Below are positions 254-22,935 of a stretch of DNA of 64,000 nucleotides, one piece after another. The stretch spans positions 1 through 64,000 of the forward strand of contig JAKLKA010000020.1 in NCBI GenBank assembly GCA_023150915.1, written 5' to 3'. Numbering within the stretch: position 1 is the first letter of the stretch; each line of letters starts with the position of its first letter. Below the pieces are notes generated by a model. That model did not search any database. It worked only from the letters and a program-made list of their open reading frames with translations, and was not told the origin of the DNA. A program made the translations under genes and the position numbers. Origin of the DNA: Polyangiaceae bacterium. Lineage in GTDB: Bacteria > Myxococcota_A > Polyangia > Polyangiales > Polyangiaceae.

Positions 254-1555
254 TCAGAGCCCGTACACCTTCGACCGATCGCCCGCCACGCCGCGCAGCG
301 CGTCGCGCGTGTCGACCACCAGCTTGGCTTCGCGCAGCAGGCGCTCGCGATCGAGGCGCTTGTGGTCGGTCACGACCACCACGCAGTCGTAGGGCGCGAA
401 GCTCGACGCGGGATCGACGCCGGCCATCTTCAGGCCCTCTTCGTCGAAGCTGGGCACGTGCGGGTCCATGTACGTGACCTCGGCGCCGCGCCCGATCAGA
501 TCGTGCATCACGTGGAAGGCGGGGCTCTCGCGCATGTCGTCCACGTCGCGCTTGTAGGCCACGCCGTAGATCAGCACCTTCGACCCCTTCACCGCCTTGC
601 GGTGGTCGTTCAGCGCCTCGGTGACGCGCTCGACCACGTAGGCCGGCATCGAGCTGTTGATGGTGTCGGCCAGCTCGATGAAGCGCGCCTGGTACTTCAG
701 CGTGCGGAGCTTCCACGACAGGTACAGGGGATCGATGGGGATGCAGTGCCCGCCCAGGCCCGGCCCCGGATAGAAGGGCATGAAGCCGAAGGGCTTGGTG
801 GCCGCGGCGCGGATCACCTCGAAGGGGTCGAGGCCCAGCCTGCGGCTCATCATCGCCACCTCGTTCACCAGGCCGATGTTCACTGCGCGGAAGGTGTTCT
901 CGAGCAGCTTCACCATCTCGGCGGCCTGGGTGCTCGAGACGGGCACCAGGGTGTCGATGATGTTCGAGTAGAGCTCCGTGGCCACGCGCAGGCACTCGGG
1001 CGTAGCCCCGCCGATCACCTTGGGCGTGTTCCGGGTCTTGTAGACCTCGTTGCCCGGATCGACGCGCTCGGGCGAGAACGCCACGAACACGTCCTTGCCC
1101 AGGACCGCGCCCTTCTCGGTGAGACGGGGCACCACCACCTCGTCCGTCGTCCCCGGGTAGGTCGTGCTCTCGAGCACGATCAGCATGCCCGGGTGCTGGT
1201 GCTTCACGATCTCGTCGGTGGCCGCGACGATGAAGCGCATGTCCGGATCTTTGGTCTTGTTGAGCGGCGTGGGCACGCACACGATCACCGCGTCGGCCTC
1301 GGCCAGGATGGCCGGGTCCGCGGTGGCCGCGAGCCGTCGCGCCTTCACGTGGGGCGCCAGATCGGCGGTGGGGACGTCCTGGATGTAGGACTCGCCGGCG
1401 TTGAGGAGGCGGACCTTCTCGCGGTCGTAGTCCAGGCCCGTGACCCGGAAGCCTGAGCGGGCGAGCTCGGCCACCAGGGGCAGGCCGACGTAGCCGATGC
1501 CCACGACGACGACGTGGGCGGATTTCTGCGCGATCTTATCGGAAAGGGTGGCCAT
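254..1555 (-). CDS. Nucleotide sugar dehydrogenase (UDP-N-acetylglucosamine/UDP-glucose 6-dehydrogenase family, WbpA-like)
   Basis: Rossmann motif VVVVGIGYVGLPLVAELARSGFRVTGLD; VCVPTPLNKTKDPD; GLGGHCIPIDPLYLSWK catalytic Cys motif. Confidence 0.92.
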   Translation of the reverse strand: MATLSDKIAQKSAHVVVVGIGYVGLPLVAELARSGFRVTGLDYDREKVRLLNAGESYIQDVPTADLAPHVKARRLAATADPAILAEADAVIVCVPTPLNKTKDPDMRFIVAATDEIVKHQHPGMLIVLESTTYPGTTDEVVVPRLTEKGAVLGKDVFVAFSPERVDPGNEVYKTRNTPKVIGGATPECLRVATELYSNIIDTLVPVSSTQAAEMVKLLENTFRAVNIGLVNEVAMMSRRLGLDPFEVIRAAATKPFGFMPFYPGPGLGGHCIPIDPLYLSWKLRTLKYQARFIELADTINSSMPAYVVERVTEALNDHRKAVKGSKVLIYGVAYKRDVDDMRESPAFHVMHDLIGRGAEVTYMDPHVPSFDEEGLKMAGVDPASSFAPYDCVVVVTDHKRLDRERLLREAKLVVDTRDALRGVAGDRSKVYGL

Positions 1556-1766: not shown

Positions 1767-2480
1767 TTGAGGTTTCGGCATCTCGTTTCCAAGCTCTGCC
1801 CAACCGGCACGGCGCTTCCGGTCCTCGCAGGGCCGCTGCGCGGCGCGAAGTGGATCGTGGGAGCCGCAAGCGGAGCTGGAAAAGGGATGTCCGTCTTGGT
1901 CAACCAAGCCGAACCGAGGCTGCTCGCCGTGGCGAGGAGCTGGTTGACGCCTGCGAGCGTGTCGCTCGACTTGGGAGCCAACGTCGGCCTATATACGCTG
2001 CTTTTCGCGCGATACGGCGCGCACGTGCACGCCTTCGAGCCGGTCCCTCGTAACATCGCCTACCTGTTCCGCCACTGCGAGCTGAACCGCGCGAGCAACG
2101 TCACCATCTTGCCTTGGGCTGTTTCGGATCACCTCGACCTGGCCAGATTCCAGATCGGGCGCTCCAACGCTCTGGGGCGCCTGAGCGAAGCCGGCAACCT
2201 CCCCGTTGTCTCGATGAGCCTCGACAAGTACGCGAGGGCGATGGACCGCACGCCTAACCTGCTGAAGATCGACGTGGAGGGTGCCGAGGAGCGCGTGCTC
2301 GAAGGTGGAAGGTACCTACTGTATGAGGCTCGTCCGAAGATCCTGCTCTCGGTTCACGGGCCAGCGGCGCGGGCAGCGTGCCAGCGCCTGCTGGGAGAAC
2401 ATGGCTATCGCCTAACGCCCCTCGACAACCCCAACGCCGGCGAGGCGAAAAACTTCGCCTGCTTGCCAAGCTCAAGCTGA
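1767..2480 (+). CDS. FkbM family methyltransferase
   Basis: SLDLGANVGLYTLLFARYGAHVHAFEPVPRN and LLKIDVEGAEERVLEGG motifs typical of FkbM methyltransferases. Confidence 0.9.
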   Translation: MRFRHLVSKLCPTGTALPVLAGPLRGAKWIVGAASGAGKGMSVLVNQAEPRLLAVARSWLTPASVSLDLGANVGLYTLLFARYGAHVHAFEPVPRNIAYLFRHCELNRASNVTILPWAVSDHLDLARFQIGRSNALGRLSEAGNLPVVSMSLDKYARAMDRTPNLLKIDVEGAEERVLEGGRYLLYEARPKILLSVHGPAARAACQRLLGEHGYRLTPLDNPNAGEAKNFACLPSSS

Positions 2481-2488
2481 GGCGACTC

Positions 2489-2656
2489 TCAGGAGTCCGG
2501 TCCGCCGCCAGCCAGATCAGACTCGCCTCCACCCCCGTGAGTGAGGTCTCGCAGCGAGCCCAACTCCACCAGTCGAGGCGCCTCGTAGCCGCGGGGCTCA
2601 GGCGTCCGCTCGGGGTTCTGGTCGATCGGCTTGTTGGGCTCATGCCCATGTGACAT
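2489..2656 (-). CDS. Lasso-peptide-type RiPP precursor (55 aa): leader MSHGHEPNKPIDQNPERTPEPRGYEAPRLVELGSLRDLTH, predicted core GGGGESDLAGGGPDS
   Basis: Translated by hand from the minus strand; below the ORF-track cutoff. Leader motif Y-x2-P-x-L-x3-G-x5-T (YEAPRLVELGSLRDLT) with Thr at penultimate leader position, core starting with Gly and Asp at core position 7. SD-like AGGGAG 7 nt upstream of ATG. Start overlaps the 3' end of the cyclase gene; stop TGA is tca at 2489-2491 on the + strand. Confidence 0.88.
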   Translation of the reverse strand: MSHGHEPNKPIDQNPERTPEPRGYEAPRLVELGSLRDLTHGGGGESDLAGGGPDS

Positions 2657-4337
2657 GGCGGGACTCCCTCTGCACCCCTCTACAGGTGCGGACGGCAGAG
2701 ATGATATTCAACAGAACTCTCAGGCGCAACGCATCTCTTGCGGCAAGCGCAGCCGGGGCGCGTTCGAGCCAGTCATCTCTCACGATTCCGGCTAGCTCCG
2801 GCGGCAGAGGCTCGCTCCAGTCCAGGTCTTGGGCAGGGTCGTGCCAGACGTGTTTGGGGGTCTCGGAGCAATGGCGGGGGACGACCCCCCGGAACGCCGC
2901 TCGAACCAAGCGTTTAGGCTCCGCATTCGTCAGCTCGAGGGGGTCGCAGCGGTACGCGAGCTCGATGACCTCACGGTTGAAGAAGGGGAAATAGCGCCGA
3001 ATCCCCAGGCCGCTGCACACCTCCCAGTTCTGCACCGTCGCCACGCCGGTGTGCAGGACTCGGTGGGTCAGGTAGGGGCGGTCGGATCGCGACTTGGCGA
3101 AGGCGGCTTGCTCGGCTCGTGCTTGGTCTCGGTACTCCGCTGCCGCGGCCCTCGCCAGGAAGCTCGGCGGCGTCAGGCTGCTCAACAGCGGCGCCCGGCG
3201 GAATGTGCGCCGCAGTCGGAAGCTGGACCAGAACCGAATCGCACCCGTCCGCGGGAGCGCCTTCGGGTACGCAAGAGCGGCCGAGCGTGGACTTGCGGAC
3301 GATGCCCAATCGAACAGGGCGGGGCCTCCCCCCAAGTGCTCGTCACAGCCTTCTCCCCCGAAGAGGCAGCCCAGCGGCTCAGCCTGAGCGATCGCGGGCA
3401 GCAGGCACAAGACCGGGTGCGCCACGGTCCAAACAACCACCGGAGCACCGCGGAGATACTCCATCCGGCGCGACGGGGAGATCTCCCTCTCCCAGGTCCG
3501 GCGCGCATGCGGTCCAATCTCCGCGCGCAGCCTGGCGAGGCGCGTGCTGACCCAGTCCAGCGCCGCGCCGGGAGGCGGCACCAGTGTCAGCGTGCTGAAG
3601 TCGAGCCCCAACGGACCCGCGGTCAGGGAGGCGAGGACGGACGAGTCGAAACCTCCGCTGAGGGCGAGGAGGTTCTTCCCGGAAGCGTCGAGCGTTCGCT
3701 GCAGGCCGTCGAGGACAACCCTCCGCAGCTCAGCGGCGTGATCCTCGAAGGTGACGTTGGCGGACTCCCTCGACGGGGGCACCCACCATTTCGTGGATCT
3801 CAGCGCGCCGCCCTTCGTCCACCGCAACACGCTGCCGCTCGCGAGCAGCTCCACTGAGGCGAGTGGGGTTCGCCCCGCGGGGGGCATGAATGCCAGTCTG
3901 CTCAGGACGGCGAGGGCGAGAGGGTCCAATCGCGGCTCTTCCGGCATGAACCGAGCGAGATCGGTCAGCCGGCTCGAGACACCGAGCATGGCGCGGCCGT
4001 GCCAGACGAACAACGGCGATGTTCCAACCGCGGCCCTCACGAAGTGCGCTTCGTTCGGTGATCGAAACCACGCGAACGTGAAGTCGCCCGGCAACGCGCG
4101 CAGCGAGCCCTCCAGCGTTCGCTGCCCCAGCTCGGACGTCGTAACGCCTGCCAATCGCTCCGCGCCCTCGACGAAGAAGACGGAGTCGCGGCGCGCGCGC
4201 AGTGAGCCGCCAGAGTGCGCGACGACCCAGCTATCGCCACGCCTCTCGACGTGATCGAAGACCCCTGAGGCGAGGAGCTTCGCTTCGAGCTCGCCGAGCG
4301 CCGCTGAATCGGGGGAGTGGAAGGCCAGGAGTCTCAT
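2640..4337 (-). CDS. Asparagine synthetase-like lasso cyclase (C protein)
   Basis: LLALSGGFDSSVLASL PP-loop (SGGxDS) ATP-binding motif. N-terminal domain starts MRLLAFHS without the catalytic Cys2 of glutamine-hydrolysing AsnB, as in lasso cyclases. Start chosen at internal Met giving an ATGA overlap with the kinase gene. Confidence 0.85.
   Translation of the reverse strand: MRLLAFHSPDSAALGELEAKLLASGVFDHVERRGDSWVVAHSGGSLRARRDSVFFVEGAERLAGVTTSELGQRTLEGSLRALPGDFTFAWFRSPNEAHFVRAAVGTSPLFVWHGRAMLGVSSRLTDLARFMPEEPRLDPLALAVLSRLAFMPPAGRTPLASVELLASGSVLRWTKGGALRSTKWWVPPSRESANVTFEDHAAELRRVVLDGLQRTLDASGKNLLALSGGFDSSVLASLTAGPLGLDFSTLTLVPPPGAALDWVSTRLARLRAEIGPHARRTWEREISPSRRMEYLRGAPVVVWTVAHPVLCLLPAIAQAEPLGCLFGGEGCDEHLGGGPALFDWASSASPRSAALAYPKALPRTGAIRFWSSFRLRRTFRRAPLLSSLTPPSFLARAAAAEYRDQARAEQAAFAKSRSDRPYLTHRVLHTGVATVQNWEVCSGLGIRRYFPFFNREVIELAYRCDPLELTNAEPKRLVRAAFRGVVPRHCSETPKHVWHDPAQDLDWSEPLPPELAGIVRDDWLERAPAALAARDALRLRVLLNIISAVRTCRGVQRESRHVTWA
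2664..2669 (-). promoter_or_regulatory. Shine-Dalgarno-like ribosome binding site (AGGGAG) for the RiPP precursor
   Basis: Minus strand reads ...AGGGAGTCCCGCC-ATG; 7-nt spacer to the start codon at 2656. Confidence 0.6.
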
Positions 4338-5230
4338 CGGCCTCGCAACACGTCGAGCAGCGCGTGCGACGCGGATTCGTCGAAGGCGAGGCGGGGTAGA
4401 TCGGCACGGTAGACTGGAATCGATCGCGCCAGCGATGCGAGCTGAGCGTGAAGGCGCGAAAGGACCTCGCGGTCCGTCCACTCCGGAACCCGTGACGCCG
4501 CCAACAGCGACCGGACCGCTTCGACTCCACGCAGCCTCAGAAGCGCGGGCGTTCGTCTGCCCACATCGAACCTCGGGATCACGATCGTATCAAGGGGGTC
4601 AGCGGTCGCGTTCCCACCGGGTGGCGACAGTGCCAACCGGCCGTCGTGCGTCTCCTCCGCATCCCAGGTCGGCAGAGCCTCGGCGATCTCCCGCACGCGC
4701 TCTCGAAGCCGGAGGCGCGCGGTTCCAGTGAAACAACGTAGACCAGTCTGATCGATGGCGACGCGGAGCACGTCGTCCGCGACCAGCCGAGCTCCGCTCA
4801 GGCACATCAGGGCTGCGAGTGTGGTCTTGCCAGCGCCAGAGGCACCGACGAAAGCCACAGTTCGGCCATCCAGAGAAACGGCGCTCGCGTGGAGGGGTAG
4901 GTCCCCTCGGGCGTTCAGTACGACCGAGAGCGCGAGTCCCTCGACCACGGCGCTGATTTGCTCGGTAGTCGGAGTGCGCTCGAACACGTCGATCCGGTCG
5001 GGTCCCACGGCGAAGGTCGCAACGTCCGGCACATCGACCGTGAACCCGGTGGGCGCCCGATGGATGGTGAAGCCCGATGAACCCGACCGACCTCCCACGC
5101 TGTCGGACTGCGACACGGGTTCGACCGCGGTCTTCGCGACGCGAACGTCGATCCGACTGGCGGACGGCTCCCAACCCGCGAGCGCGTAGTCCGACAGAAT
5201 CTCGAGCCCGTGCAGCGCGACGCGATGCAT
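4334..5230 (-). CDS. HPr kinase/phosphorylase-like protein (lasso-peptide kinase type)
   Basis: VAFVGASGAGKTTLAALM P-loop preceded by LPLHASAVSLDGRTVAFVGASGAGK, followed by GARLVADDVL, the characteristic layout of HprK-like kinases in RiPP/EPS loci. Confidence 0.88.
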   Translation of the reverse strand: MHRVALHGLEILSDYALAGWEPSASRIDVRVAKTAVEPVSQSDSVGGRSGSSGFTIHRAPTGFTVDVPDVATFAVGPDRIDVFERTPTTEQISAVVEGLALSVVLNARGDLPLHASAVSLDGRTVAFVGASGAGKTTLAALMCLSGARLVADDVLRVAIDQTGLRCFTGTARLRLRERVREIAEALPTWDAEETHDGRLALSPPGGNATADPLDTIVIPRFDVGRRTPALLRLRGVEAVRSLLAASRVPEWTDREVLSRLHAQLASLARSIPVYRADLPRLAFDESASHALLDVLRGR

Positions 5231-5248
5231 CTCCAGCCGCTCCGGAAC

Positions 5249-5617
5249 TCAGCTCAGTGCTTGGTACTCGCCATGGCTCGGCTCGCCGACAGGTGTCCCC
5301 TCGATCTCGATCCAGGCGTGCGCGACGATTCCATCACCTCGCCGTCGCACGCCGATTCGAAGCACGGGACCGTGCTCTCGGAGCAATGCCCCGAGCACGA
5401 GAGACCGCCGCAAGCAGCGCCCCCGCCGTGGCCAGACGCCGAGCACGCGGTCGGTTGCTGCGACGACCCCGTGGACCTCGCGGGATGGCGGGCCGCTCGA
5501 TGCCGTCGGCGTCGTGCCCAGCCCAAGCCACCGAGACAGCCGATTCACTGACACCACGCGCAACCCCGTCTCTACCAGGACGCCAAGGCAGGCAGCTTGC
5601 AGGTGCTCGAACATCAC
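5249..5617 (-). CDS. Lasso peptide biosynthesis B2 protein (transglutaminase-like leader peptidase)
   Basis: RRGRCLRRSLVLGALLREHGPVLRIGVRRRGDGIVAHAWIEIEGTPVG: Cys (RCLRRSL) and His (AHAWIE) motifs of B2 proteases. Confidence 0.9.
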   Translation of the reverse strand: MMFEHLQAACLGVLVETGLRVVSVNRLSRWLGLGTTPTASSGPPSREVHGVVAATDRVLGVWPRRGRCLRRSLVLGALLREHGPVLRIGVRRRGDGIVAHAWIEIEGTPVGEPSHGEYQALS

Positions 5618-5910
5618 TTTGGTTCGTCCGGTACCAAGAGGCCGCGTCGCGTCAACTCGTTGACGAGCGCAGATAGATCCCGCGCAACGGTCTCCTCGTC
5701 GACACCGAATTCGGTCGCTACCACAGATATGATGCGCGGCGCGCTTGCAGATTCACTCAGAAGCTGCCACATGCGCGTGCCCGTTGGGTTCAGTCCGAAA
5801 TACCTTCCACTTTCCAGGTGCAAGAGCACCGCCTCGCCGTCCACCACCTCACTCAGCACGCCGGGCGGCACTGTGAAGCCGCACGGTTGGTGTGAGTGGG
5901 GCGCTGTCAT
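5614..5910 (-). CDS. PqqD family protein (RiPP recognition element, lasso B1)
   Basis: GVLSEVVDGEAVLLHLESGRYFGLNPTGTRMWQLL...VDEETVARDLSALVNELTRRGLLV is PqqD/RRE-like; ATGA overlap with the B2 gene. Confidence 0.9.
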   Translation of the reverse strand: MTAPHSHQPCGFTVPPGVLSEVVDGEAVLLHLESGRYFGLNPTGTRMWQLLSESASAPRIISVVATEFGVDEETVARDLSALVNELTRRGLLVPDEPK

Positions 5911-5995
5911 TGGCGCTCTCTAGCACCTTCGGCAGCCGTAGACACGCGAGGCGCACTAGCTATACTGCACTGGGTTTTCGTCTGGGGAGTTCTTC

Positions 5996-8900
5996 ATGAG
6001 AAATAGCGCGTTCTTGGCCTGCTTCGCGGTTGCCATGTCTTTCGGTTTCGCCACGGGTTGCGGAGATGGGGAAGAAGGGGGCAGTGGCGGTAGTGGGACT
6101 GGTGGCACAGGCGGGACCGGCGGAGACGGCGGCAAGTGCCCGAACCTGAGCTTCACGGCCCCGACGTCAGGGACCAAGCTCGGCGCCGGCGCCGACAAGG
6201 ACGGCGACTGTTCCAACGGTATTCAGGTCGACGTCGCGGTGTCGACCAGCGCCAAGGACGGCGCTGCGGCGACTCTGCGCGCCGACGGACAGTCCGTCGG
6301 AACCGCTACAGCCGCTGGCTCGAAGCTCCTGTTCAAGGACGTGCAGCTGGCGTCCTCAGGGTCCACGACGCTCGAAGTCGAGCTCGATGACGACCCGTCG
6401 TGCACGGCGACCATCGACGTCACTTCGGAGTGCGGGGGCGCGGCGTGCGAGATCAGCAAGCCGGTCGTGAGCGCTACTCATCCCGAGCTGAATGGCGTGC
6501 CGGTCGCGGAGGGTGGCGACCGGGTCAGCGCCCCTGGGCAGGACTACCAAGTCGCGTTCGAGGTCAAGACGACCATCGAAGACGGACAGCCCGTGACCCT
6601 GACCGTCGATGGGAAGGCACAAGCCGCCGTCGCGCTGGCTCAGGGCGGGACCGCGAAGTTCGCCGGTGTCACGCTGGTCCCGGATGGGGACCACGAGGTC
6701 TCAGCGACCTGCGCGCCGAAGGTCGGCTCGAATGGCACGAGCGCCAAGGTGAAGCTGCCGGTCGATACGACGCCACCTGATCTCGTCAACGCGACCCCAG
6801 TCGACGATACGTTCATCGGCCCGACGGAGGACGTGAACCCCTCCAAGACCGGACTGCAGTTCAAGGTTTGTGGTGAATCGACCGCCGCAGATGCGGTGGA
6901 CCTGCCTGCGTCCCTCGGTGCAGGCAAGGACAACTTCTGCGTGGCCATCGGAACGGCCTCGCCCCAGTGCAGCGCGGCCCAGGCCGGCGCAGTTGGTGGA
7001 AAGAACGGCGGCTGCGTCGAGCTCGACTGCCCCGGTGGAGCGCCCTTCGACCTGAACGTCACCCTCAAGGACGACGCCGGGAACCCGACGATCAAGTCGC
7101 TCAAGGGGATTCGATGCGCGTCGTCGCTCCCCGGCGTTCAAATCATCGAGCCGGTAGACGGGACGGGCTCCGACGTCTCGAAGCACATCCTCGCCGCGAC
7201 GGCGACCCAGGTTCGAAAGGACCAGGACGGGACCAAGGCGGGCGCACAGTATTCCGTGACAGCCTGCTCTAACGTTGCGGGTACCGGGACTCTCCGGGCA
7301 GGAATCAGTGGAAGCACACTCACTGTGGTTGCCAGCAACGTGGCCACGGCTCCCGCGCAGGCGTCGGACAACTGCCCCGCCGGCTACGGCCACGTCGTGA
7401 AGTTCACGAATGCCGACCTTCCGGACAGCACGGTCACGACGGACGGGAAGAACGCACTCGTCGCGGGGACCGAGCTCGAGGTCGAGGTGACCGACGTGAG
7501 CACCGCGAAGGGCAAGAGCCCGGCCGTGAAGGTGTGGGTCGATTCGACAGCGCCGAACATTTATGCGTGGGTGCCGGCCGACCTGTGCGGGAAGCTGTTC
7601 CAGAGCCCGACCGACGTCACGCAGAACGTCGTGTTCGGTTCCACGAACTCTCCGGTAGCGCTCACGGTGACGAGCAACGGCACTCCCGCGAACTACACGG
7701 AGACGAGCTGGGCGAATGGCTTCAGTACGTTCAACAACGTCACTTTCAAGGTCGGCTCCAATGACATCGCGGCGACCACGACAGAGCCGTCTGGGAACAC
7801 CGCGGCGCTGAAGACTCCCTGTGCCGCGATGGTGGGCAATCCCCCAGTCGTGACCTGGACGGCTCCGACCCAGTCGAGCGCGTTGAATGCGTCAACGGAC
7901 GGGGACGGCGGAACGGCGGGCTGGCAAGGGGCGGTCTCGGTGCAGACCGACATCGGCGGCTCCGGCGCGACGGTCACCTTCACGGTGACGTGCGGCGCGA
8001 CGGAAACGACGCTCGGAACCGCGAACGTGAATGCCTCCGGAGTCGCGTCGCTCGCCAACGTCACCCTGCCGGAGTGTGGTTCTGCGACGCTCAAGGCGAC
8101 GACGAGCTCGGTAGCAGGGAAGGGTGTCGGTACCTCCTCGTTGGCCAACAAGGTTGTTGACACCGTGGCCCCCAGCGCTGCCACGGGGATCACCGCAACC
8201 GTCAAGGACCGCCGTGCCACGAGCTTCACCCTTTCCTGGACGGCTCCGGGCGACGGGTCAGCGACGGTCGCGGGCTACGACATTCGCGTGTCCAAGTCGC
8301 CCATCACGGCCGGCAACTTCTCTGCTGCCGAAGCCGTCACCTACTCGGGCACGCCGAAGGCCGCGGGGCAAGTCGAGACGCTGACGGTGAACGGCCGGGT
8401 GATCGAAACGGGCTACTACTTTGCTGTCGCGGCCATCGATGCGGGTGGCAACAAGGGGACCATCGCAGCTACCGCGAGCGCAGCCAAGGCCACCTTCAAC
8501 CAGACGATCCTGTCGGGTGGGACCGGCGAACGGATGGGCTTCAGAGTCGACGGGGCGTCCAGCATCAATGGCGACTCGTTGTCGGATCTGATCGTTGGCA
8601 CCGCGGGCCAGAACAAGGCCTACGCTTGGTTCGGCTCGGCCACCGGGTACGCGACGGCTCCGTCTATCACCTTTACAGGCGCCTCCGGCACCTCATTTGG
8701 GATCGCGGCGACTCCTGTCGGTGACATCGACGGTGATGGCTTGGTCGATGTCGCCATCGGCGCGTCGGCGGACGCGGGCCGAGGGCGCGTGTACGTCTTC
8801 AAGGGCCGCGCCAACTGGGCGGCGTCTTACTCCCAGGCCCAAGCCGACTACGTCATTGACGTCGATCCCGTCGCGGACTCGAAGTTCACGGCGTCGAGCT

Positions 8901-9796
8901 TTGGCGTCACCATTGCAGCACTGGGCGACTTCGATGGCGACGGCCCCGCCGACTTCGCGGTGGCCGCGTACTTCTACGGCGTATCGGGCGCACGCCAAGG
9001 CTACGTCGCGGTCATTCGCGGCGTCCCGACCGGCCAGACCTTCCCGGCCACTGTCACCCTCCCGGCGGATGTTGGCACCCGCGCCATCGCCTACGTGGGT
9101 GAAGCAGGAAACAACCAGTTCGGGTTGGCGATCACCTCCATGGGCGGTTTCTACGGAGGAAGCAAGTCCGCGATGGTTGTCGGTGCGCCGCTCGGCGGGA
9201 AGGTCTACTCGTTCCAGGGTGGAACAGGGACGACCGGGACCATTCAGGCAGGGACGGCGAAGGAGATCTATACGGGGTCCGTCGCGCTGCGCACGGGCAA
9301 CCCGGTCACCCACTTGGGAGCGTCAGGGGTGGGTGTCGGGAGCCCGGGCTTGGCGTCGAACGCGGGTGGTGACGCGAGGCTCTTCTTCGGGAACGGCACG
9401 ACGGTGTTCAGCGCGAGCGCCACGACGTTCTCCAACTCCGCGGCGCCTGCGCTGGGTGATCGTTTTGGCAACGCGGTCTTCGGCAGTGCATTCTCGGGCT
9501 CAGCGGTAGCCGCTAGCTGGATCGGAGGAGCGGGCGTCGACATCGCCATGTCGTCCGTGGCGGAGAACGGAGGGCCAGCCCGGCTCTACCTCGCCGAAGC
9601 CTCCAAGCTCACGGCGTCGGGCGACATAGTTGCGCTCGCGGACATCGTGGTGCCACTCCCGTCGGGCTGGGTCGGATCGTCCTCTGGATCCAGCTCAATC
9701 CGCGACTGCGACGGCGACGGATACGGCGACATCGCCGTCGGCGAGCACCTGGTCACGGCCACACCGTACGACGGGCGGGTACTGGTCCTCTGGTGA
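5996..9796 (+). CDS. Secreted lipoprotein with Gly-rich linker, Ig-like/fibronectin III and FG-GAP (integrin-like) repeat regions
   Basis: Signal peptide with lipobox SFGFATGCGDG; GGSGGSGTGGTGGTGG linker; FG-GAP-type DxDGDGxxD repeats (VGDIDGDGLVDVAIGASADAGRG, LGDFDGDGPADFAVAAY). Confidence 0.82.
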   Translation: MRNSAFLACFAVAMSFGFATGCGDGEEGGSGGSGTGGTGGTGGDGGKCPNLSFTAPTSGTKLGAGADKDGDCSNGIQVDVAVSTSAKDGAAATLRADGQSVGTATAAGSKLLFKDVQLASSGSTTLEVELDDDPSCTATIDVTSECGGAACEISKPVVSATHPELNGVPVAEGGDRVSAPGQDYQVAFEVKTTIEDGQPVTLTVDGKAQAAVALAQGGTAKFAGVTLVPDGDHEVSATCAPKVGSNGTSAKVKLPVDTTPPDLVNATPVDDTFIGPTEDVNPSKTGLQFKVCGESTAADAVDLPASLGAGKDNFCVAIGTASPQCSAAQAGAVGGKNGGCVELDCPGGAPFDLNVTLKDDAGNPTIKSLKGIRCASSLPGVQIIEPVDGTGSDVSKHILAATATQVRKDQDGTKAGAQYSVTACSNVAGTGTLRAGISGSTLTVVASNVATAPAQASDNCPAGYGHVVKFTNADLPDSTVTTDGKNALVAGTELEVEVTDVSTAKGKSPAVKVWVDSTAPNIYAWVPADLCGKLFQSPTDVTQNVVFGSTNSPVALTVTSNGTPANYTETSWANGFSTFNNVTFKVGSNDIAATTTEPSGNTAALKTPCAAMVGNPPVVTWTAPTQSSALNASTDGDGGTAGWQGAVSVQTDIGGSGATVTFTVTCGATETTLGTANVNASGVASLANVTLPECGSATLKATTSSVAGKGVGTSSLANKVVDTVAPSAATGITATVKDRRATSFTLSWTAPGDGSATVAGYDIRVSKSPITAGNFSAAEAVTYSGTPKAAGQVETLTVNGRVIETGYYFAVAAIDAGGNKGTIAATASAAKATFNQTILSGGTGERMGFRVDGASSINGDSLSDLIVGTAGQNKAYAWFGSATGYATAPSITFTGASGTSFGIAATPVGDIDGDGLVDVAIGASADAGRGRVYVFKGRANWAASYSQAQADYVIDVDPVADSKFTASSFGVTIAALGDFDGDGPADFAVAAYFYGVSGARQGYVAVIRGVPTGQTFPATVTLPADVGTRAIAYVGEAGNNQFGLAITSMGGFYGGSKSAMVVGAPLGGKVYSFQGGTGTTGTIQAGTAKEIYTGSVALRTGNPVTHLGASGVGVGSPGLASNAGGDARLFFGNGTTVFSASATTFSNSAAPALGDRFGNAVFGSAFSGSAVAASWIGGAGVDIAMSSVAENGGPARLYLAEASKLTASGDIVALADIVVPLPSGWVGSSSGSSSIRDCDGDGYGDIAVGEHLVTATPYDGRVLVLW

Positions 9797-10770
9797 CAAG
9801 TCGAAGAGCGGTCAGCTCCAGCGGGCCCCGTCCGGAGCTGACCGCGGCTTGGAACCTCGCGGTAGAGGCCGAGCTTGCCTTCGTTCTCGGCGCATTTGCG
9901 CGAGAACGCCTCGAAGTGGTGGTGCTGAAGGGGACGCCGCTGCTGCGGCGTCTCGGCGAGCCGCTCGTGGAGCGGACGCTCGCAGACAACGACCTGCTCG
10001 TGCGCGGCTCTTCACTGATTGCCGCCGAGAGGATTCTCGAGAGGCTCGGCTATCAGTCCACACGGCCACTGAGCCTGAGCGTTCGTGCCGGCTCCGGGCA
10101 GCACTCCATGGTGCGCCAAACGCCCGTAGTGCGCCACGTCGTCGACTTGCACTGGGCAGCATTCCACGCACCGTTCAGGGGAGTCAGTCCCGAGCTCGTC
10201 TGGGCTCACACCGAGGTGAGCTCGGTGTGCCAGCAAGAGGCCCGAGTCCTGGACCGCCCGATGACGCTGCTTCACACCGCTGCCCACTTCGTCTGGCACT
10301 CGATGGGCCAGCTCCGACTGTTGCGCACGCTGGGCCGTGCCTGGGATGCGTGGGGGCACGAGCTCGACCCGGCGGAGCTCAGGCACCTCGCGCTTCGAAC
10401 CGGCACGTTGCCGTCTCTCGAGTACTCGCTTCGTGCTGCACAAGAGCTCGGGCTGGCGCGTGGGGCGCTCCGTTTCACCACGCTTCGGGCCCGGACGGTC
10501 CGGGAGCTCCTACCCCCGGCAGAGTTGCTCCTGAAGCGACCCGTCCCGGACTACGAGCGCATGGCCGTGGCGCTGATCCTGGTATCGACGGAGCGTGCCC
10601 TCATCCATGCGCTGCGCTTGGCACTTCCCAGCATCCCGGAGGCCGAAATCCTGGCGGGAGCTTCCGGCCCCCAAGCAGTGGCCCGGACCTACCTGCTCCG
10701 CCCGTTCTACGCCGCCCGAAGGCTGAGAGCGTATCGCCGTCACTTGGCCCGCGAAGTCGACGACGCATAG
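9793..10770 (+). CDS. Nucleotidyltransferase family protein (NTP_transf_5-like)
   Basis: LEVVVLKGTPLLRRLGEPLVERTLADNDLLVRGSS, HHxx-rich C-terminal half (HTAAHFVWHSMGQLRLL); GTG start overlaps preceding stop (GTGA). Confidence 0.78.
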   Translation: MTSRRAVSSSGPRPELTAAWNLAVEAELAFVLGAFARERLEVVVLKGTPLLRRLGEPLVERTLADNDLLVRGSSLIAAERILERLGYQSTRPLSLSVRAGSGQHSMVRQTPVVRHVVDLHWAAFHAPFRGVSPELVWAHTEVSSVCQQEARVLDRPMTLLHTAAHFVWHSMGQLRLLRTLGRAWDAWGHELDPAELRHLALRTGTLPSLEYSLRAAQELGLARGALRFTTLRARTVRELLPPAELLLKRPVPDYERMAVALILVSTERALIHALRLALPSIPEAEILAGASGPQAVARTYLLRPFYAARRLRAYRRHLAREVDDA

Positions 10771-12005
10771 CCATCCGGAGGGCTTGGACCGTCGGTCAGG
10801 GCGGCGTAAAGCGACCGGAGCGAGGCGCGGAGGCCCAGCCAGCTGGTCACGAGCCGCTCCCGAGCCGCCCGTCCCATCGCTGCCAGCTCCTCGTCGTTTA
10901 GCGCAGCGGTGCGCTCGAGAGCGAGCGTGAGCCCGTCGACGCTGCCTGCTTCGTGTAGGAAGCCGACCGTCGAGTCCACGAGTGCGCGAAACAGGGGGAT
11001 ATCCGATGCGACTACAGGCTTCCGCGCGAGGAAGGCCATCAGCGCCACCGAGCTGTGGGCGTACCACCGCACGGAGTAGGGCAGCACTACCACATGACTG
11101 GATGCCAAGGCCGCGCAGAACTCCTCCGGCGTGAGATAGCGGTCCAAGATCACTGAGTTCCGGAGCGACTTGGCGCGCTGGCGATCGAAGCCGGGCGTTG
11201 GTTTGCCGGCGATGAGCAGCCCGCAGCGCGTGCCGGCCGGGAACTCGGCTTTCTCCCATGCATCAAGCAGCGTGTCGATGCCCTTCTCTTTGCGGAGAAC
11301 ACCGAGCAACAGAAAGACTCGGTCGTAGCGCTGGAGCTTCGCCCCGAGGGCCGACCGGTGCTCGCGGAGCTTCTTGGCGTCGAGCACCGGCTCGACATCC
11401 GCCCACGGAAACGGGTGGACACAGATGGTCTCGCACGGGACGCCCATGCGACGCTGCAGCTCCTCACGGACGTGGTCGAAGTGGACGATCAAGCGGTCGG
11501 CGAGCTCGAACACGCGGCGACGCCTCGCGGAAGAGCTGCGCGGCCCCTCGAAGACGACGTCGTGCGCCGTGACGAGCAGAGTCTTGCCGAGGGCCTTGAC
11601 CGCGAGCGCGAACAGCCAGGTGGGAAGCTCGTCGTCGATGACGCTCAGGTTGACAACGTCGATGCGTTCCCGACGGATGTACGGGACCAGCCGGACGTAG
11701 CCGAGCGCTAGCTCGGCGTAGCGTATCGGCAGACGGAGCCCGGAAAGCTCGAGGAATCGCAGGTATGGGTTCCGGTCCGTGTTCTCTGTCAGCGGGAAGA
11801 AGACCCTCAGCACCTTCTCCCCGGCCGGCGGCCTGAACGTGAAGTAGCGGTTTGTCGCGAGCGTCAGGTCCACCGACTCGACCGCCCGTAGCGCCTCTGC
11901 GATCCCCGCCAGATAGGCTCCGGCCACCCCCGCAGTTCCATGGTAGACGTACAGCACCCGGAGCGGTTCGCGAGGCCCGGGTGCTCGCGACCCGATGTCG
12001 TTCAT
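10740..12005 (-). CDS. Glycosyltransferase family 4 protein
   Basis: VFLLLGVLRKEKGIDTLLDAWEKA...LLIAGKP and HVVVLPYSVRWYAHSSVALMAFLARKPVVASDIPLFRALVD donor-binding motifs. Confidence 0.87.
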   Translation of the reverse strand: MNDIGSRAPGPREPLRVLYVYHGTAGVAGAYLAGIAEALRAVESVDLTLATNRYFTFRPPAGEKVLRVFFPLTENTDRNPYLRFLELSGLRLPIRYAELALGYVRLVPYIRRERIDVVNLSVIDDELPTWLFALAVKALGKTLLVTAHDVVFEGPRSSSARRRRVFELADRLIVHFDHVREELQRRMGVPCETICVHPFPWADVEPVLDAKKLREHRSALGAKLQRYDRVFLLLGVLRKEKGIDTLLDAWEKAEFPAGTRCGLLIAGKPTPGFDRQRAKSLRNSVILDRYLTPEEFCAALASSHVVVLPYSVRWYAHSSVALMAFLARKPVVASDIPLFRALVDSTVGFLHEAGSVDGLTLALERTAALNDEELAAMGRAARERLVTSWLGLRASLRSLYAALTDGPSPPDGYASSTSRAK

Positions 12006-12035: not shown

Positions 12036-13145
12036 TCAGGCCTTGCCATAGAACTGGCGAACGGTCGCAATCACGTAGTCGAGCTCGTCGTTCGTGATTT
12101 CCACGTTCATCGGCAGCGAGCAGACCTCTCGGCTCAACGCTTCCGTCTCCGGGAAGCCCCGGTCCTCCAGTCCGAGCGCGGCGTGCTTGTAGTACGGCTT
12201 CCGGAACTGCGTGAGCACTTCGACGCCGCTTTGCTTCAAGTGCTCGGAGAAGGCGTTGCCCTGCTTCGAGCGAACAGTGTAGTTCTGGTACACGTGAGTG
12301 AAACCCGGCCGATCATAGTGAGGCAGCAAGAGATCTGGCAGGTTCGACAGGTTCGTTCGATAGCGCTCTGCAATCTCTTGCCGACGAACGATCCAGCGCG
12401 GTAGGTGCCGGAGCTTCACGTCAAGGAACGCAGCCTGCAGATTGTCCAACAGCGCCGTGAAGCCATGCCCGTGGTACTCCCCCGTCTCGCGGTCCTCGCC
12501 GTTGTAACGCATTCGGCTCACCCAGCGGGCGACCTCAGGGTCGTCGGTCGTGATGGCTCCACCGTCACCGTAGCCACCGAGGATCTTGAACGGATAGAAA
12601 CTCCAACATCCGGTCTTGCCCCAGGCACCGGCGCCCTTGCCGTTGATGCTCGCTCCGAGCGACTGGCAAGCGTCTTCCACGACCACCAGGCGGTGCTTCT
12701 CTGCCAGCGCCACGATCCTGGGCATGTCTGCCATCCAGCCGGAGAGGTGCACCGGGAGAAGCGCCTTGGTGCGCGCGGTGATCGCGGGCTCGATCAGGTC
12801 CACGTCGATGTTGAAGTCCTTGCCAACGTCGACGAGGACAGGCGTTGCACCCACGTTCACGATCGCCGAGCAGCTCGCGACGAACGTGTGCGCCGGCACG
12901 ATGACCTCGTCTCCCGGTCCAATTCCGGCTGCCCGCAGCGACAGGTGCAGGGCGTCGTATCCGCTGTTGAGCCCGACCGCGAAGCGCGTCCCGACGAACT
13001 TCGCGAGGTTCTCCTCGAAGCTTCGCAGCTGGCCCCTCATGATCAGGTCACCGCGAGACATCACGTCGCGATACGCTGCGTCGATCTCGTCTTTGATCAG
13101 CTCGTAGTTCCTGACTGCATTGACAAACGGGACTTTGTAACCCAT
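12036..13145 (-). CDS. DegT/DnrJ/EryC1/StrS family sugar aminotransferase
   Basis: GLNSGYDALHLSLRAAGIGPGDEVIVPAHTFVAS; VVVEDACQSLGASINGKGAGAWGKTGCWSFYPFKILGGYGDGGAI PLP-Lys motif. Confidence 0.93.
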   Translation of the reverse strand: MGYKVPFVNAVRNYELIKDEIDAAYRDVMSRGDLIMRGQLRSFEENLAKFVGTRFAVGLNSGYDALHLSLRAAGIGPGDEVIVPAHTFVASCSAIVNVGATPVLVDVGKDFNIDVDLIEPAITARTKALLPVHLSGWMADMPRIVALAEKHRLVVVEDACQSLGASINGKGAGAWGKTGCWSFYPFKILGGYGDGGAITTDDPEVARWVSRMRYNGEDRETGEYHGHGFTALLDNLQAAFLDVKLRHLPRWIVRRQEIAERYRTNLSNLPDLLLPHYDRPGFTHVYQNYTVRSKQGNAFSEHLKQSGVEVLTQFRKPYYKHAALGLEDRGFPETEALSREVCSLPMNVEITNDELDYVIATVRQFYGKA

Positions 13146-13162
13146 GGCGAATCCTCGTGGCC

Positions 13163-13711
13163 CTAGCCGGGTGACTCTCGAGTGGGAACGAAGGCGCCGA
13201 GCAGCCGGAGCCCGAGCCTTCGGGTGCGATGTCCGATGCGGTACCGAGAAAGCCCGGCCTTCTCAGCGGCACGGATAGAAGCCAGATTCGCCTCCTCCGT
13301 GAGGTACCAAAGTCTCCCGCAGGTAGTCCTCTCGAGCGCCGCGACTTTCCGGATCGCTTCCGATGCGATGCCTCGCCCGCGGTAATCCGGGTCCGTCCAC
13401 GTGTCACCGATTTGAAGGTCGTCCACGGCCATGAAGGGAAATCGGAACCACCCTGGTGTCACCACGGAGCGGTGAATGGGCTTGTCGCCATCGTACACGG
13501 TGAGCACGCCGTAGCGTCGGTTGCGGAAGACATGGAGCTCGTGGAATATCCACCACACGGCGAGGGGCGGAGTGAACATGCGGCGTGGCCAGGGCCTCCG
13601 AAGCGAAGGCCGCCAGAGTGCCACTCGGAGATCGCCGCCACCCTCCGGAGGCGCAACCTCCGAGGGCGCTGCGAAGTAGAAACGGCAAACGTGGTCGTCT
13701 GAGCTTGCCAT
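13163..13711 (-). CDS. GNAT family N-acetyltransferase
   Basis: DLQIGDTWTDPDYRGRGIASEAIRKVAAL...LWYLTEEANLASIRAAEKAGL acetyl-CoA binding motif. Confidence 0.85.
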   Translation of the reverse strand: MASSDDHVCRFYFAAPSEVAPPEGGGDLRVALWRPSLRRPWPRRMFTPPLAVWWIFHELHVFRNRRYGVLTVYDGDKPIHRSVVTPGWFRFPFMAVDDLQIGDTWTDPDYRGRGIASEAIRKVAALERTTCGRLWYLTEEANLASIRAAEKAGLSRYRIGHRTRRLGLRLLGAFVPTRESPG

Positions 13712-13722
13712 TCCCGAGCAAT

Positions 13723-14832
13723 CTAGCCTTGCGGCGGTGCCGTCGACAATCGGCTATCTTCAGCGGGCTCTGCTCTGCGTTTCGCCACGGCACGCCGCCA
13801 GCCCAGCCAGAGCTGAATGGTCCACGCCCCCAAACTGGCCAGCAACGCATAGAAGCCGACTGCGACAAGTCGACGTTTCCAAACTTCGGAGGTGGCCGGC
13901 CCATCGACGATCGCGACGTAGCGCGGTCTGACGCCGCCGAGATGACTGATGAGGCGTGCCGCCGGCTTGGGCAGCAGCCGCAGCCGGAGGTTCAGTTCGG
14001 TCGCCTCGAAGACGTTGTTGCCCCAGGGGAACGCGAGCATGGCGAGCCCCTCGGGTGAGTAATAGGGAGTGCGAGAAAGCTGAACTTGGCGTCCGTCCAT
14101 CTCAAAAGCGTTCTTCTCGACGGTGGCTCGGTTCACCGCTGCGAGTGCCGCTTCCTGGAAGAACTCGAGCTGGAAGGGATGGTACTGGAGTACCGCATCG
14201 CGGAAGGCCAGAGCCGACAATGGCACTCCATCTTCGCCGCGCACGATGAATCCGAACTGCGCATCAATGAAGACCCACTTCTTGAGTCCTCGGTCGTAGA
14301 ATTCGTTGAAGCCGTGGCTGTTGCTGGTGACTTCGCGCGCCGGCATTCCCACGGCGGTGGCAAGCGCGACGAACACCTGCGTAAAGTCTGAACAACAGCC
14401 GCGGGCTCCATTGGCCAGGTCGCGGGCCTTTTCGGCGAGGTCGTCCGTGAATCCACAACCCGTGCGGGGCACTGCAGGGTGCCGGGCCACTAGTCGCGCG
14501 AGCCCCTTGGCTCGCTCAGTGTCGTCGCCGAGCGTTCTCAAGCGCGCAAGCGAGCCAGCTCCAAGTGCGGCATCAATCTGGTGCACCGCTCGAGGCGACT
14601 CGGCTCGGTCAACCCGGAACCCTGAGGTCGAAAGAGCCGGATAGTCCGCGTATACGGCGCCTGGGTCAGACGTGTAATCCGTGAAGATCGCGTCCCGGAC
14701 AGCGACATACGCAATCTTGTTCCCTAGGTAACCCGCCAGCAGAAGCAGGATGGCCACGAGGCATGGCGCAGCAAAGAGCCTGCCTCGGAAGCGGCGGACC
14801 CGAGGACGACCAAGCGCTGTCAATGCTTTCAT
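13723..14832 (-). CDS. Membrane protein with transglutaminase-like domain
   Basis: GARGCCSDFTQVFVALATAVGMPAREVTSNSHGFNEFYDRGLKKWVFIDAQFG gives a Cys-His-Asp transglutaminase core; N- and C-terminal TM segments. Confidence 0.82.
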   Translation of the reverse strand: MKALTALGRPRVRRFRGRLFAAPCLVAILLLLAGYLGNKIAYVAVRDAIFTDYTSDPGAVYADYPALSTSGFRVDRAESPRAVHQIDAALGAGSLARLRTLGDDTERAKGLARLVARHPAVPRTGCGFTDDLAEKARDLANGARGCCSDFTQVFVALATAVGMPAREVTSNSHGFNEFYDRGLKKWVFIDAQFGFIVRGEDGVPLSALAFRDAVLQYHPFQLEFFQEAALAAVNRATVEKNAFEMDGRQVQLSRTPYYSPEGLAMLAFPWGNNVFEATELNLRLRLLPKPAARLISHLGGVRPRYVAIVDGPATSEVWKRRLVAVGFYALLASLGAWTIQLWLGWRRAVAKRRAEPAEDSRLSTAPPQG

Positions 14833-14950
14833 GCGTTGCGTGGGCTATGGGGCGCGTTCACGGGTGGAGCGCGAGGTTAGCGCGAGCCAGTGGTGCGCAC
14901 CAGACCCGAATCAAATGGCCAGATTGCCAATCGAGCCACGCTGCGCTCGA

Positions 14951-16261
14951 ATGCGCGACGACATGCCCGGTCCGGGAAGTTCCTCTGCGTCTGGGGTAGC
15001 CCCCCTGACCATCGCTTTCGTGATGATCAGCTTCGATCCCGAGCCCGGCGCACAACATGGGCTGCCTTTGGCACGGTGGCTGATGGAGCGTGGGCACCGT
15101 GTCAAAGTGCTGACGTCTTTCCCCCAGTACCCCGCCGGGAAGACCTATCCGGGGTACCGGCAACGGTCGTTCTTCCGCGAGGTGATGCAAGGCGTTCCGG
15201 TTCTGCGCGTGCCGATCTACCCGAGTCACGACACCTCTGCGCTCCGGAGAATCGCGACTTATGGGAGCTTCGCAGCCTCGGCGACCTTCATCGGCGCGCC
15301 CCTGGTGGGTCCTGCAGACGTGGTCTTTCTCTACGATCCACCACCCACCACCGGGGTGCCGGCGCTGGCGCTGAGTCTCCTCCGGCGTGCTCCGGTGGTC
15401 CATCACATCGCGGACATGTGGCCCGAGACGGTCACTGAGTCTGGAATGCTGCGGAGTGAGCTCGCCAGGTCGGTCGCGCATGCGAGCATCGGTGCTTACT
15501 GCAAGATGCTCTACTCCCACGCCCAGCACGTCTCGGTGCTCTCGCCCGGGTTCAAGCGGCTGCTCGTCGAGCGCGGCGTGCCCGCGCAGAAGGTGTCGGT
15601 CATCTACAACTGGGCGGATGACGCCTTCCGGCCGCTGCCCAAAGACGCCGAGTATGCTCGCGCGCTCGGGGTGCAGGGGGGATTCAACGTTCTCTACGCC
15701 GGCAACGTTGGCCCGTTGCAGAACATCGAAGTTGTGGTTCGCGCCGCGGCGTTGATCAAATCCCATTCCGACATCCAGGTCCACGTCGTCGGAACGGGGC
15801 CGCTGCTCGACCGGGTGAAAGCCGTTGCGAAGGAGGTTGGTGCGGTGAACGTCAACTTCGTCCCGCGGCAACCGTTTGGCGACATGCCCCGAATCCAGGC
15901 GCTCGCCGACGTCCTCCTGGTGCATCTCAAGGATGTGCCCTTTCTGCGCGCGACGATTCCCAGCAAGACCCAGGTTTCGATGGCGTGTGGCAGGGCAGTT
16001 CTGATGGCGGCGCGCGGGGATGCTCCTGACCTGATCCTCAGGGCTGGCGCAGGGTCCGCATGCGAGCCGGATAACCCCAACGCGTTGGCAGCCGAAATGC
16101 TGAGGTTGCACTCGCTTCCGAGACCCGAGCTGGAAGCGATGGGGCGCAACGGCAGACGCTACTACGAGGACCACCTGAGCCTGGACGCTTCAGCTCGGGC
16201 GATGGAGTCGCTGTTCTGTGAAGCTGCCCGCTCCGGGCGCCGCGCTGGAAAGCTCGCCTAG
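14951..16261 (+). CDS. Glycosyltransferase family 4 protein (WbuB-like)
   Basis: FDPEPGAQHGLPLARWLMERGHRVKVLTSFPQYPAGKTYPGY...VVHHIADMWPETV...VLYAGNVGPLQNIEVVVRAAALI. Start placed at internal Met. Confidence 0.88.
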   Translation: MRDDMPGPGSSSASGVAPLTIAFVMISFDPEPGAQHGLPLARWLMERGHRVKVLTSFPQYPAGKTYPGYRQRSFFREVMQGVPVLRVPIYPSHDTSALRRIATYGSFAASATFIGAPLVGPADVVFLYDPPPTTGVPALALSLLRRAPVVHHIADMWPETVTESGMLRSELARSVAHASIGAYCKMLYSHAQHVSVLSPGFKRLLVERGVPAQKVSVIYNWADDAFRPLPKDAEYARALGVQGGFNVLYAGNVGPLQNIEVVVRAAALIKSHSDIQVHVVGTGPLLDRVKAVAKEVGAVNVNFVPRQPFGDMPRIQALADVLLVHLKDVPFLRATIPSKTQVSMACGRAVLMAARGDAPDLILRAGAGSACEPDNPNALAAEMLRLHSLPRPELEAMGRNGRRYYEDHLSLDASARAMESLFCEAARSGRRAGKLA

Positions 16262-17250
16262 AGGGCCCACTTCTTCTTGAGCGCGTTTGTCGCCTCAGCG
16301 CGTTCCAGTGCAGTGAGCCGGTGTGAGAAGACCACGAACTCGGAGACGCCGAATGCCCCATGCTCGACGTTGAGCGGATCGTGACAAAGATGGCCGGCGC
16401 CCAGGAGCGTTGCGAGCCCCGAGCTTCCGGTGAGGCTCTGCTCGAACACCCCGTTGCGATACAGCGCGCGGTCGCCCATTGTCGATACTGCGAGTTCCAG
16501 TAGCATGGGGTTCCCATCGGGCATCGGCGCCCCTTGCAGCACGGGCGTGGGGGTAGCCGTGCCCTGGTACACGAGGAGAGTTCCGCCGAGGGTGCCCCAC
16601 CAAGTCGAGGTGGCCCCGACTGGTGGGAGCACGCTACGGTTGCTCAAGAGGACCTGCTGAGTCGCTGCGCCGGGGTGCTTGTAGACGACGAACAGGATCG
16701 AGTATTGGTCGGCGAGCTTCGCAGACTGACCGAATACGAGCGCGTCATCGAGGCCATCGCAGTGCACCGCAGGCCGGCCGTTGTTGAGGGTTAGCAACGG
16801 GCGCTTGGTGCCCGACGCTGTCGCGAGCGCCGCCCCGCACTTGCTGGCCCAGGAGTCGACGTAGGGTCCCGCGGACTTCAAGGTGGACGGATCCGCGGCG
16901 TCGAGCCAGACGACGCAGTCTGGAGAGGTCGCAGGGTTCCAAGCGGGGGCTCCGTCTGTCGCATCCGCTTCTGGCGAGTCCGCGGGAGCGTCGATCGCGT
17001 CCATGGCATCGTCGGCGTCACCTGCGGCATCCTGGTCTCCGGCTGCATCGCTCGGTGCACCGCCAAGCGACCCTGCCCAACCCCCGCCGCCGCCCGATCC
17101 CCCAAACGGTGCGCCAGAGACCCCAGCGGTCCCCCCCTGCACGGTCTTGCCAGCACCCGGCGCAGCCCCGTCCTCCTCCAGCGCGCACGCGAGCAGCACA
17201 CACGAGGCCGCCCACAGCGCCGACGCGCGGAACGGAAGCATGCTCCGCAT
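16258..17250 (-). CDS. Secreted lipoprotein with LamG/concanavalin-like domain
   Basis: Lipobox ASCVLLACALEEDG; C-terminal NPATSPDCVVWLDAADPSTL...YRNGVFEQSLTGSSGLATLLGAGHL...FGVSEFVVFSHRLTALERAEATNALKKKW typical of bacterial LamG-like sandwich proteins. Confidence 0.7.
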   Translation of the reverse strand: MRSMLPFRASALWAASCVLLACALEEDGAAPGAGKTVQGGTAGVSGAPFGGSGGGGGWAGSLGGAPSDAAGDQDAAGDADDAMDAIDAPADSPEADATDGAPAWNPATSPDCVVWLDAADPSTLKSAGPYVDSWASKCGAALATASGTKRPLLTLNNGRPAVHCDGLDDALVFGQSAKLADQYSILFVVYKHPGAATQQVLLSNRSVLPPVGATSTWWGTLGGTLLVYQGTATPTPVLQGAPMPDGNPMLLELAVSTMGDRALYRNGVFEQSLTGSSGLATLLGAGHLCHDPLNVEHGAFGVSEFVVFSHRLTALERAEATNALKKKWAL

Positions 17251-17329
17251 CGTATCCCGCGTGTCGGCCAGCGCAAGCATGCGTATACGCGAGTGACAGC
17301 GCCCGTTTCGTCGGCTAAACCCGCGGTGC

Positions 17330-22788: not shown

Positions 22789-22935
22789 GCGCCTGCACCA
22801 CCCCACCGGGTGGTTCTGGTGTCCAGCCTGCGCCCGGGGCTGACAGATTCTTGACGGCACCTGCTTCGGGTTGTCTCGATTCGGACATGCCCTATGCTCG
22901 AGCGTAGGGCCCTCTTTCGCGGGAGACGAGCAGGA

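Follow-up and report, generated by a model that had tools for sequence, protein, structure and literature searches.

A lasso-type precursor gene and its maturation operon beside an FG-GAP lipoprotein gene in a Polyangiaceae bacterium

A small minus-strand ORF in the window, the stretch of 64,000 nucleotides of Polyangiaceae DNA analysed here, is, as judged from its sequence, a real lasso-type precursor gene (A), and it is the last gene of an operon in the order RRE (B1), protease (B2), HprK-like kinase (K), cyclase (C) and precursor. Comparative gene linkage furthermore suggests that an FG-GAP lipoprotein gene (FG) and a nucleotidyltransferase gene (N) on the opposite strand belong to the same peptide system. 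In the explanation that covers these observations jointly, and that is regarded as very probable, gene A encodes the precursor of a phosphorylated lasso-type macrolactam, which is matured by B1-B2-K-C and acts together with FG at the surface. The precursor itself is a variant within the bsf/paeninodin group of phosphorylated lasso-type RiPPs, with a predicted seven-residue, Gly-rich ring; the part that is new to specialists is the FG-GAP linkage. The positions of the features are collected in Table 1.

Table 1. Features of the cluster and its surroundings; positions refer to the window unless a locus (L) is named.
Feature	Position	Strand	Remarks
Nucleotide-sugar dehydrogenase gene	254-1555		polysaccharide region
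FkbM methyltransferase gene	1767-2480		polysaccharide region
Precursor gene A	2489..2656	-	55 aa; product MSHGHEPNKPIDQNPERTPEPRGYEAPRLVELGSLRDLTHGGGGESDLAGGGPDS
A, stop	2489-2491		
A, core	2492-2536		
A, leader	2537-2656		
A, YxxPxL...T(-2) motif	2540-2587		
Cyclase gene C	2640..4337	-	asparagine-synthetase-like macrolactam synthetase; intact SGGxDS PP-loop
Kinase gene K	4334..5230	-	HprK-related; His114-Lys135-Asp152-Asp153 motif
Leader peptidase gene B2	5249..5617	-	transglutaminase-like; NF033537 68.8 bits vs cut-off 33
RiPP recognition element gene B1	5614..5910	-	PqqD-like; first gene of the operon; PF05402 67.5 bits
Intergenic region	5911..5995	.	85 bp, divergent, between lasso operon and FG
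Sigma-70-like TAGACA-16-TATACT	5939-5966	+	towards FG; consensus match only
FG-GAP repeat surface lipoprotein gene FG	5996..9796	+	1266 aa; lipobox FATGC, Ig-like, FN3, FG-GAP C-terminal part
Nucleotidyltransferase gene N	9793..10770	+	NTP_transf_5, PF14907; start within FG stop codon
Glycosyltransferase gene	10740-12005		polysaccharide region
DegT aminotransferase gene	12036-13145		polysaccharide region
Heparinase-like gene	20743-22788		polysaccharide region
Second-family precursor	L112:12974-13177	+	
Second-family precursor	L113:7631-7792	-	
Second-family precursor	L114:12738-12899	+	
Second-family precursor	L117:13347-13544	+	
Second-family precursor	L119 about 13100-13283	+	
Second-family precursor	L120:7106-7273	-	

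Retranslation of the minus-strand ORF reproduced the translation, coordinates, start and stop given in the first-pass annotation. The leader, running from Tyr(-17) to Thr(-2), contains YEAPRLVELGSLRDLT, which matches the lasso leader consensus YxxPxLxxxGxxxxxT, and the core, GGGGESDLAGGGPDS, begins with Gly1 and carries Asp at position 7; the boundary between the two, as originally proposed, is backed by family models, by BsfA and by an ortholog. An SD-like run precedes the start (...GAGGGAGTCCCGCC-ATG, minus strand), and the ATG overlaps the end of the cyclase gene (stop 2640-2642) by 17 bp, an overlap that is identical in the ortholog (locus L011). The NCBIfam model NF033521 (lasso_leader_L3) scores the product with 31.2 bits against a cut-off of 19; the match is the only one in the 8.0-Mb genome, a draft of 295 contigs whose closest relative is a MAG, and there were no matches in 14 control genomes. 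The gene had been described as hidden, and it is indeed absent from the length-cut ORF list; since a standard model recognises it, however, it is hidden only from that list. GC-rich DNA opens many frames, and a chance ORF might be suspected for this reason, but the score of the curated model, its uniqueness in the genome, the empty control genomes, the synteny and the selection acting on the ortholog pair leave this reading a negligible probability, and it was rejected.

The search of genome contigs for related loci yielded one, on record JACPVJ010000008.1 of a congeneric Myxococcales MAG (G002; from groundwater, according to its isolate name). It has the same operon, with a cyclase that is 72% identical, and a precursor, MSHGHEPNKLADQNTDAPPAAHGYEAPRLVELGSLADLTHGGGGGDDQVSGGPES, with the core GGGGGDDQVSGGPES. 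The comparison with related genomes that had been proposed as a check of the small ORF thus found both the ORF and its leader motif conserved in syntenic context. The two precursors (55 vs 55 aa) align without gaps and are identical at 39/55 positions; the leader motif is nearly invariant (17/18 residues), more variation being found in the N-terminal part and the core, where Asp7 and the C-terminal Ser are kept. The differences between the genes fall on codon positions 1/2/3 as 9/10/19, with a dN/dS of ~0.34 in the frame of gene A; among the other frames, a comparable signal is seen only in the antisense frame whose third positions are in register with those of gene A. Judged by this comparison, the precursor gene is under purifying selection.

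The genes B1-B2-K-C-A look like one operon because they overlap by 4 bp (B1/B2), 4 bp (K/C) and 17 bp (C/A), with one gap of 18 bp (B2/K). B1 is the only PqqD-family gene detected in its genome, and its best non-repeat PDB match is the lasso RRE TbiB1 (5v1u/5v1v; E 1.6e-15). Across 24 myxococcal cyclase loci, Cys68 and His100 of B2 are both present in 24/24, the SGGxDS motif of C is kept and His114, Lys135, Asp152 and Asp153 of K are invariant or nearly so; this His-Lys-Asp-Asp motif is essential in lasso-tailoring kinases (PMC9266682). The window hence holds the hallmarks of a lasso BGC, namely the precursor leader, the B1 RRE, the B2 Cys/His pair, an Asn-synthetase-like C and the Asp7 acceptor, and the coupling of a lasso-type precursor to the cyclase, first proposed from this DNA by itself, is corroborated by family models, the syntenic ortholog, 25 homologous Myxococcota precursors and the cleaved BsfA. 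Several observations count against the best explanation, among them these: C matches PF00733 (E 8e-16) but lies far below the cut-offs of the lasso-cyclase models NF033535/NF033561 (24.6 vs 525 bits), the third catalytic residue of B2 is not clear in the alignment, an ABC transporter (D) was not found in the window operon, and the data come from a draft genome and, for the closest relative, a MAG. Assignment to a defence system was discarded; PADLOC gave just two marginal matches, both to the P-loop region of K.

For the family as a whole, 379 Myxococcota genomes were searched for lasso B2, and ~60 loci were taken and scored by window-seeded profiles. The cyclase profile matches 24 loci and the precursor profile 23, of which 21 have a cyclase and two do not; a 22nd cyclase locus with a precursor (L065) was detected by its motif. 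A cyclase is missing from many other surveyed loci that have B1, K, B2 and/or N; in L047, L048, L057, L067-L069 and others, where B1 is combined with K, B2 and/or N, neither a cyclase nor a recognised precursor is present. With residues counted from Tyr(-17), 20/26 precursors have their ring acceptor at residue 8 and four at residue 9; residue 7 is the acceptor only in the window and its ortholog. The C-terminal Ser is absent from most other Myxococcota cores; this lack of generality, like the Gly at the BsfK site Ser3, counts against the best explanation. The precursor profile also retrieved the precursor of locus L061 (6200-6367), whose core, GTSGNEVDGSTPADRGNNPGD, has a computed mass of 2015.8416 Da, compared to 2015.8417 Da calculated for the BsfA core (PMC10368454), and agrees with the description of BsfA in T2, S3, S10, T11 and the C-terminal Asp (PMC10368454). 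From this agreement in mass and residues, L061 holds either the bsf cluster itself or one identical to it; cleavage of the BsfA precursor was shown experimentally (PMC10368454), and this anchors the leader/core boundary in the window family. The L061 gene that occupies the bsfN position is likewise matched by the N profile.

Some surveyed loci are of interest in their own right. L056 has tandem lasso-type precursor genes with a 4-bp overlap in one cluster (12202-12453 and 12450-12638, +). Lasso-type precursors with the core GVTGPFPEVGDSTQL[TS]P lie beside B1/K/B2/N in L079 (4735-4914, -) and L081 (8318-8449, +); no cyclase was detected at L079, which is at a contig edge, or at L081, in >8 kb of upstream sequence. 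In L104 (8223-8492, +), an unusually long core of 30 aa with two Cys, GSGSGGLDVSTNCTTPGEDQVDPPPPTCSP, adjoins an FG-linked lasso cluster.

By homology, the operon could make its product in the following manner: B1 would bind the precursor leader, as suggested by its relationship to TbiB1, and K would phosphorylate the precursor before cleavage, most likely at the C-terminal Ser15. B2 would then cleave the His(-1)-Gly1 bond, with Thr(-2) as its guide, and C would activate Asp7 with ATP, yielding a Gly1-Asp7 macrolactam (isopeptide). N may elongate the phosphate group, an activity reported for PsmN of pseudomycoidin, and the product would probably act at the cell surface jointly with the FG-GAP lipoprotein, which is encoded divergently. 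The phosphorylated residue is Ser3 in bsf (PMC10368454) and the C-terminal Ser in paeninodin and pseudomycoidin (PMC9266682). Phosphorylation at Ser3, as by BsfK, is ruled out in the window, where residue 3 is Gly; since, moreover, no core hydroxyl other than that of Ser15 is common to window and ortholog, Ser15 is the predicted phosphosite, a prediction that draws on two sequences. A product of core minus 18 Da had been expected at first; the macrolactam part of this expectation stands, but the predicted phosphorylated macrolactam would have the mass of the core -18 Da +80 Da (perhaps with a hexose) because the cluster carries a tailoring kinase.

A threaded lasso form is plausible, and “lasso-type macrolactam” is the safe term. 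The tail, LAGGGPDS, has no bulky plug residue, which counts against threading, and the peptide may be unthreaded for this reason. The product could be a branched cyclic peptide, that is, a side-chain-to-N-terminus macrolactam that is unthreaded or only transiently threaded, its glycine-rich seven-residue ring (GGGGESD) and Gly-rich tail giving no steric lock; the ortholog core similarly lacks an aromatic or bulky tail residue, and the cyclase is divergent. On the other hand, the leader as well as RRE, B2 and C are of the lasso type, and small residues or a C-terminal phosphate or sugar could hold the tail in so tight a ring. Seven-residue rings are known from xanthomonins. An unthreaded product is accordingly a serious possibility, though somewhat doubtful.

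The C-terminal part of FG is similar in sequence to integrin alpha chains, and FG is the single member of its family in its own genome. Its gene overlaps N by 4 bp (GTGA), as in the ortholog locus L011. The first-pass annotation had proposed 2489-5910 for expression; this interval holds B1-B2-K-C-A, but the functional unit suggested by linkage extends past 5910 to FG and N. When the N-terminal half of FG, before the FG-GAP repeats, was used as the query, the family was found in 14/379 myxococcal genomes, and in 13/14 a PqqD-type RRE domain is encoded at a distance of 22-1366 bp from the FG gene, although only 1-3 of these domains occur in each of the 13. In the 14th (G004), FG and the adjacent lasso cyclase and precursor are at the edge of a contig, and the RRE is on another short contig. 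The chance product of this proximity would be ~1e-37 under independence, which is not a p-value because the genomes are related. The sole exception to the linkage is a second FG-GAP paralog in G041 (L115:9364-13239, +), without an RRE or kinase nearby.

FG occurs in two types of cassettes: (i) the lasso type, with B1/B2/K/C/A, in the window, G001, G002, G009 and G004; (ii) a radical-SAM type, with an RRE, K and a radical SAM/SPASM enzyme, in L112, L113, L114, L117, L119 and L120. In L110, L116 and L118, FG adjoins an RRE, and contig ends or divergence keep these loci out of both lists. In the radical-SAM loci, a short ORF encoding a YxxP leader and a core that contains Cys lies directly 3' of FG (for example, MSPENQILNPPALLPYEAPRVVEDLPLETYSLACDSGSGGKNPGACDTEGGIANT in L112 and ...RERYEAPRVLEDLPLESFSLACDPGKNEGQCDLDGLPIST in L114); in L113, overlaps of 4-8 bp connect the RRE, rSAM and FG genes to the genes next to them, and the FG stop of L112 is overlapped by the small precursor ORF. 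These ORFs form a second RiPP precursor family (YEAPRV..DLPLETYSLAC...C and relatives), and the three radical-SAM-type precursors scanned with NCBIfam models gave no match. Kinase matches are weaker in this type (e.g. 4e-09 in L119), and the assignment is less certain in L113 because two overlapping frames match the kinase profile. FG, RRE, K and often N are retained while the chemistry of the cassette changes. In bsf-type genomes, an FG-GAP gene is divergent from C in eight cyclase loci; HHalign of window-type and bsf-type FG aligns only the FG-GAP part (395 columns), so whole-length orthology is unsupported and just the same architecture and position are claimed for these genomes.

FG is best read as a surface partner of the modified peptide, with scaffold, receptor, acceptor and immunity as candidate roles. 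The wider statement, that the FG-GAP family is a dedicated surface partner (scaffold, receptor or target) of phospho/glyco-modified Myxococcota RiPPs of two unrelated chemistries, is evenly balanced between holding and failing. The authors who described bsf presumed the bordering FG-GAP gene to be uninvolved (PMC10368454), and a literature search for FG-GAP proteins tied to PqqD or lasso peptides found nothing beyond that paper. FG could indeed be an independent surface gene that descent has kept beside the cassette: its function has no assignment, and the paralog in G041 does without a nearby RRE. Yet the linkage spans 13/14 genomes, several families, two cassette types and differing orientations, the rSAM-FG and FG-precursor genes overlap in radical-SAM loci, and among the FG-GAP proteins of bsf-type genomes, the best match to the bsf neighbour is usually encoded at the lasso locus, all of which makes mere hitchhiking unlikely. 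In another rival explanation, K, B1 and N form a general surface-modification system acting mainly on FG or another substrate, the small ORF being one among several substrates. The overlap of N with FG, the linkage of FG to RRE and kinase with two unrelated maturation enzymes and the commonness of B1/K/B2/N sets without a cyclase in the phylum would fit such a system, but the closely examined FG cassettes mostly also hold a small YxxP-leader ORF and BsfK phosphorylates its own precursor peptide (PMC10368454), so that it is considered quite improbable.

The cluster lies in a polysaccharide region (Table 1), a setting similar to that of related kinase/RRE clusters (PMC13381572). Downstream of the ortholog cluster, L011 has two nucleotide-sugar dehydrogenase copies (14443-15741 and 16982-17998, +) where the window has one, and the gene of the heparinase II/III-like protein in the window precedes one whose product ends in a K1-lyase domain (20743-25023, +, for the pair). 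Lasso-peptide phosphorylation and the associated nucleotidyltransferase have no established role (PMC9266682, PMC10368454). Lasso mining mostly proceeds on the assumption that the product is a secreted antimicrobial; a conserved link to a surface lipoprotein, kept across changing maturation chemistry, suggests instead that the site of action of these peptides is the envelope of the producer itself. Culturable Bradymonadales have a similar arrangement, which makes the envelope question directly testable.

Among named systems, the GeoRSP and SynChlorMet radical-SAM-PqqD cassettes (TIGR04303, TIGR04302, TIGR04248-51) are among the nearest relatives of the radical-SAM and RRE proteins of the second type, with all matches far below cut-off; the window cluster itself is without a radical SAM enzyme. 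Clusters for linear polyphosphorylated peptides (LPP; PMC13381572) likewise combine an RRE, an HprK-like kinase and an NTP transferase in polysaccharide loci, with a YxxP leader element. They have no cyclase, however; their peptidase is SpI-like and their leader reads YxxPxVLxHQxIxFETxxS, whereas the window has a cyclase, B2 and a lasso leader; an LPP-type linear peptide was ruled out on these grounds. With paeninodin and pseudomycoidin (PadeK, ThcoK, SyanK, PsmK/PsmN; PMC9266682), the window shares the HprK-like kinase with its His-Lys-Asp-Asp motif, the C-terminal Ser of the core and a nucleotidyltransferase (PsmN), but its core is a Gly-rich 15 aa without plug residues, its predicted ring has seven residues and it has an FG-GAP lipoprotein as partner. 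From the bsf cluster of Bradymonas sediminis FA350 (BsfA/B1/B2/C/D/K/N; PMC10368454), the window differs in Thr(-2) instead of Ile(-2), Asp7 instead of Asp8 and Gly3 instead of the Ser3 phosphosite, so that the bsf-type pair of Ile(-2) and Ser3 is absent, and its operon is without the ABC transporter D and has a different gene order, with the kinase between B2 and C. The two nevertheless have the same set of A, B1, B2, C, K and N, the leader register Y(-17) P(-14) L(-12) and an FG-GAP repeat protein at the border in common.
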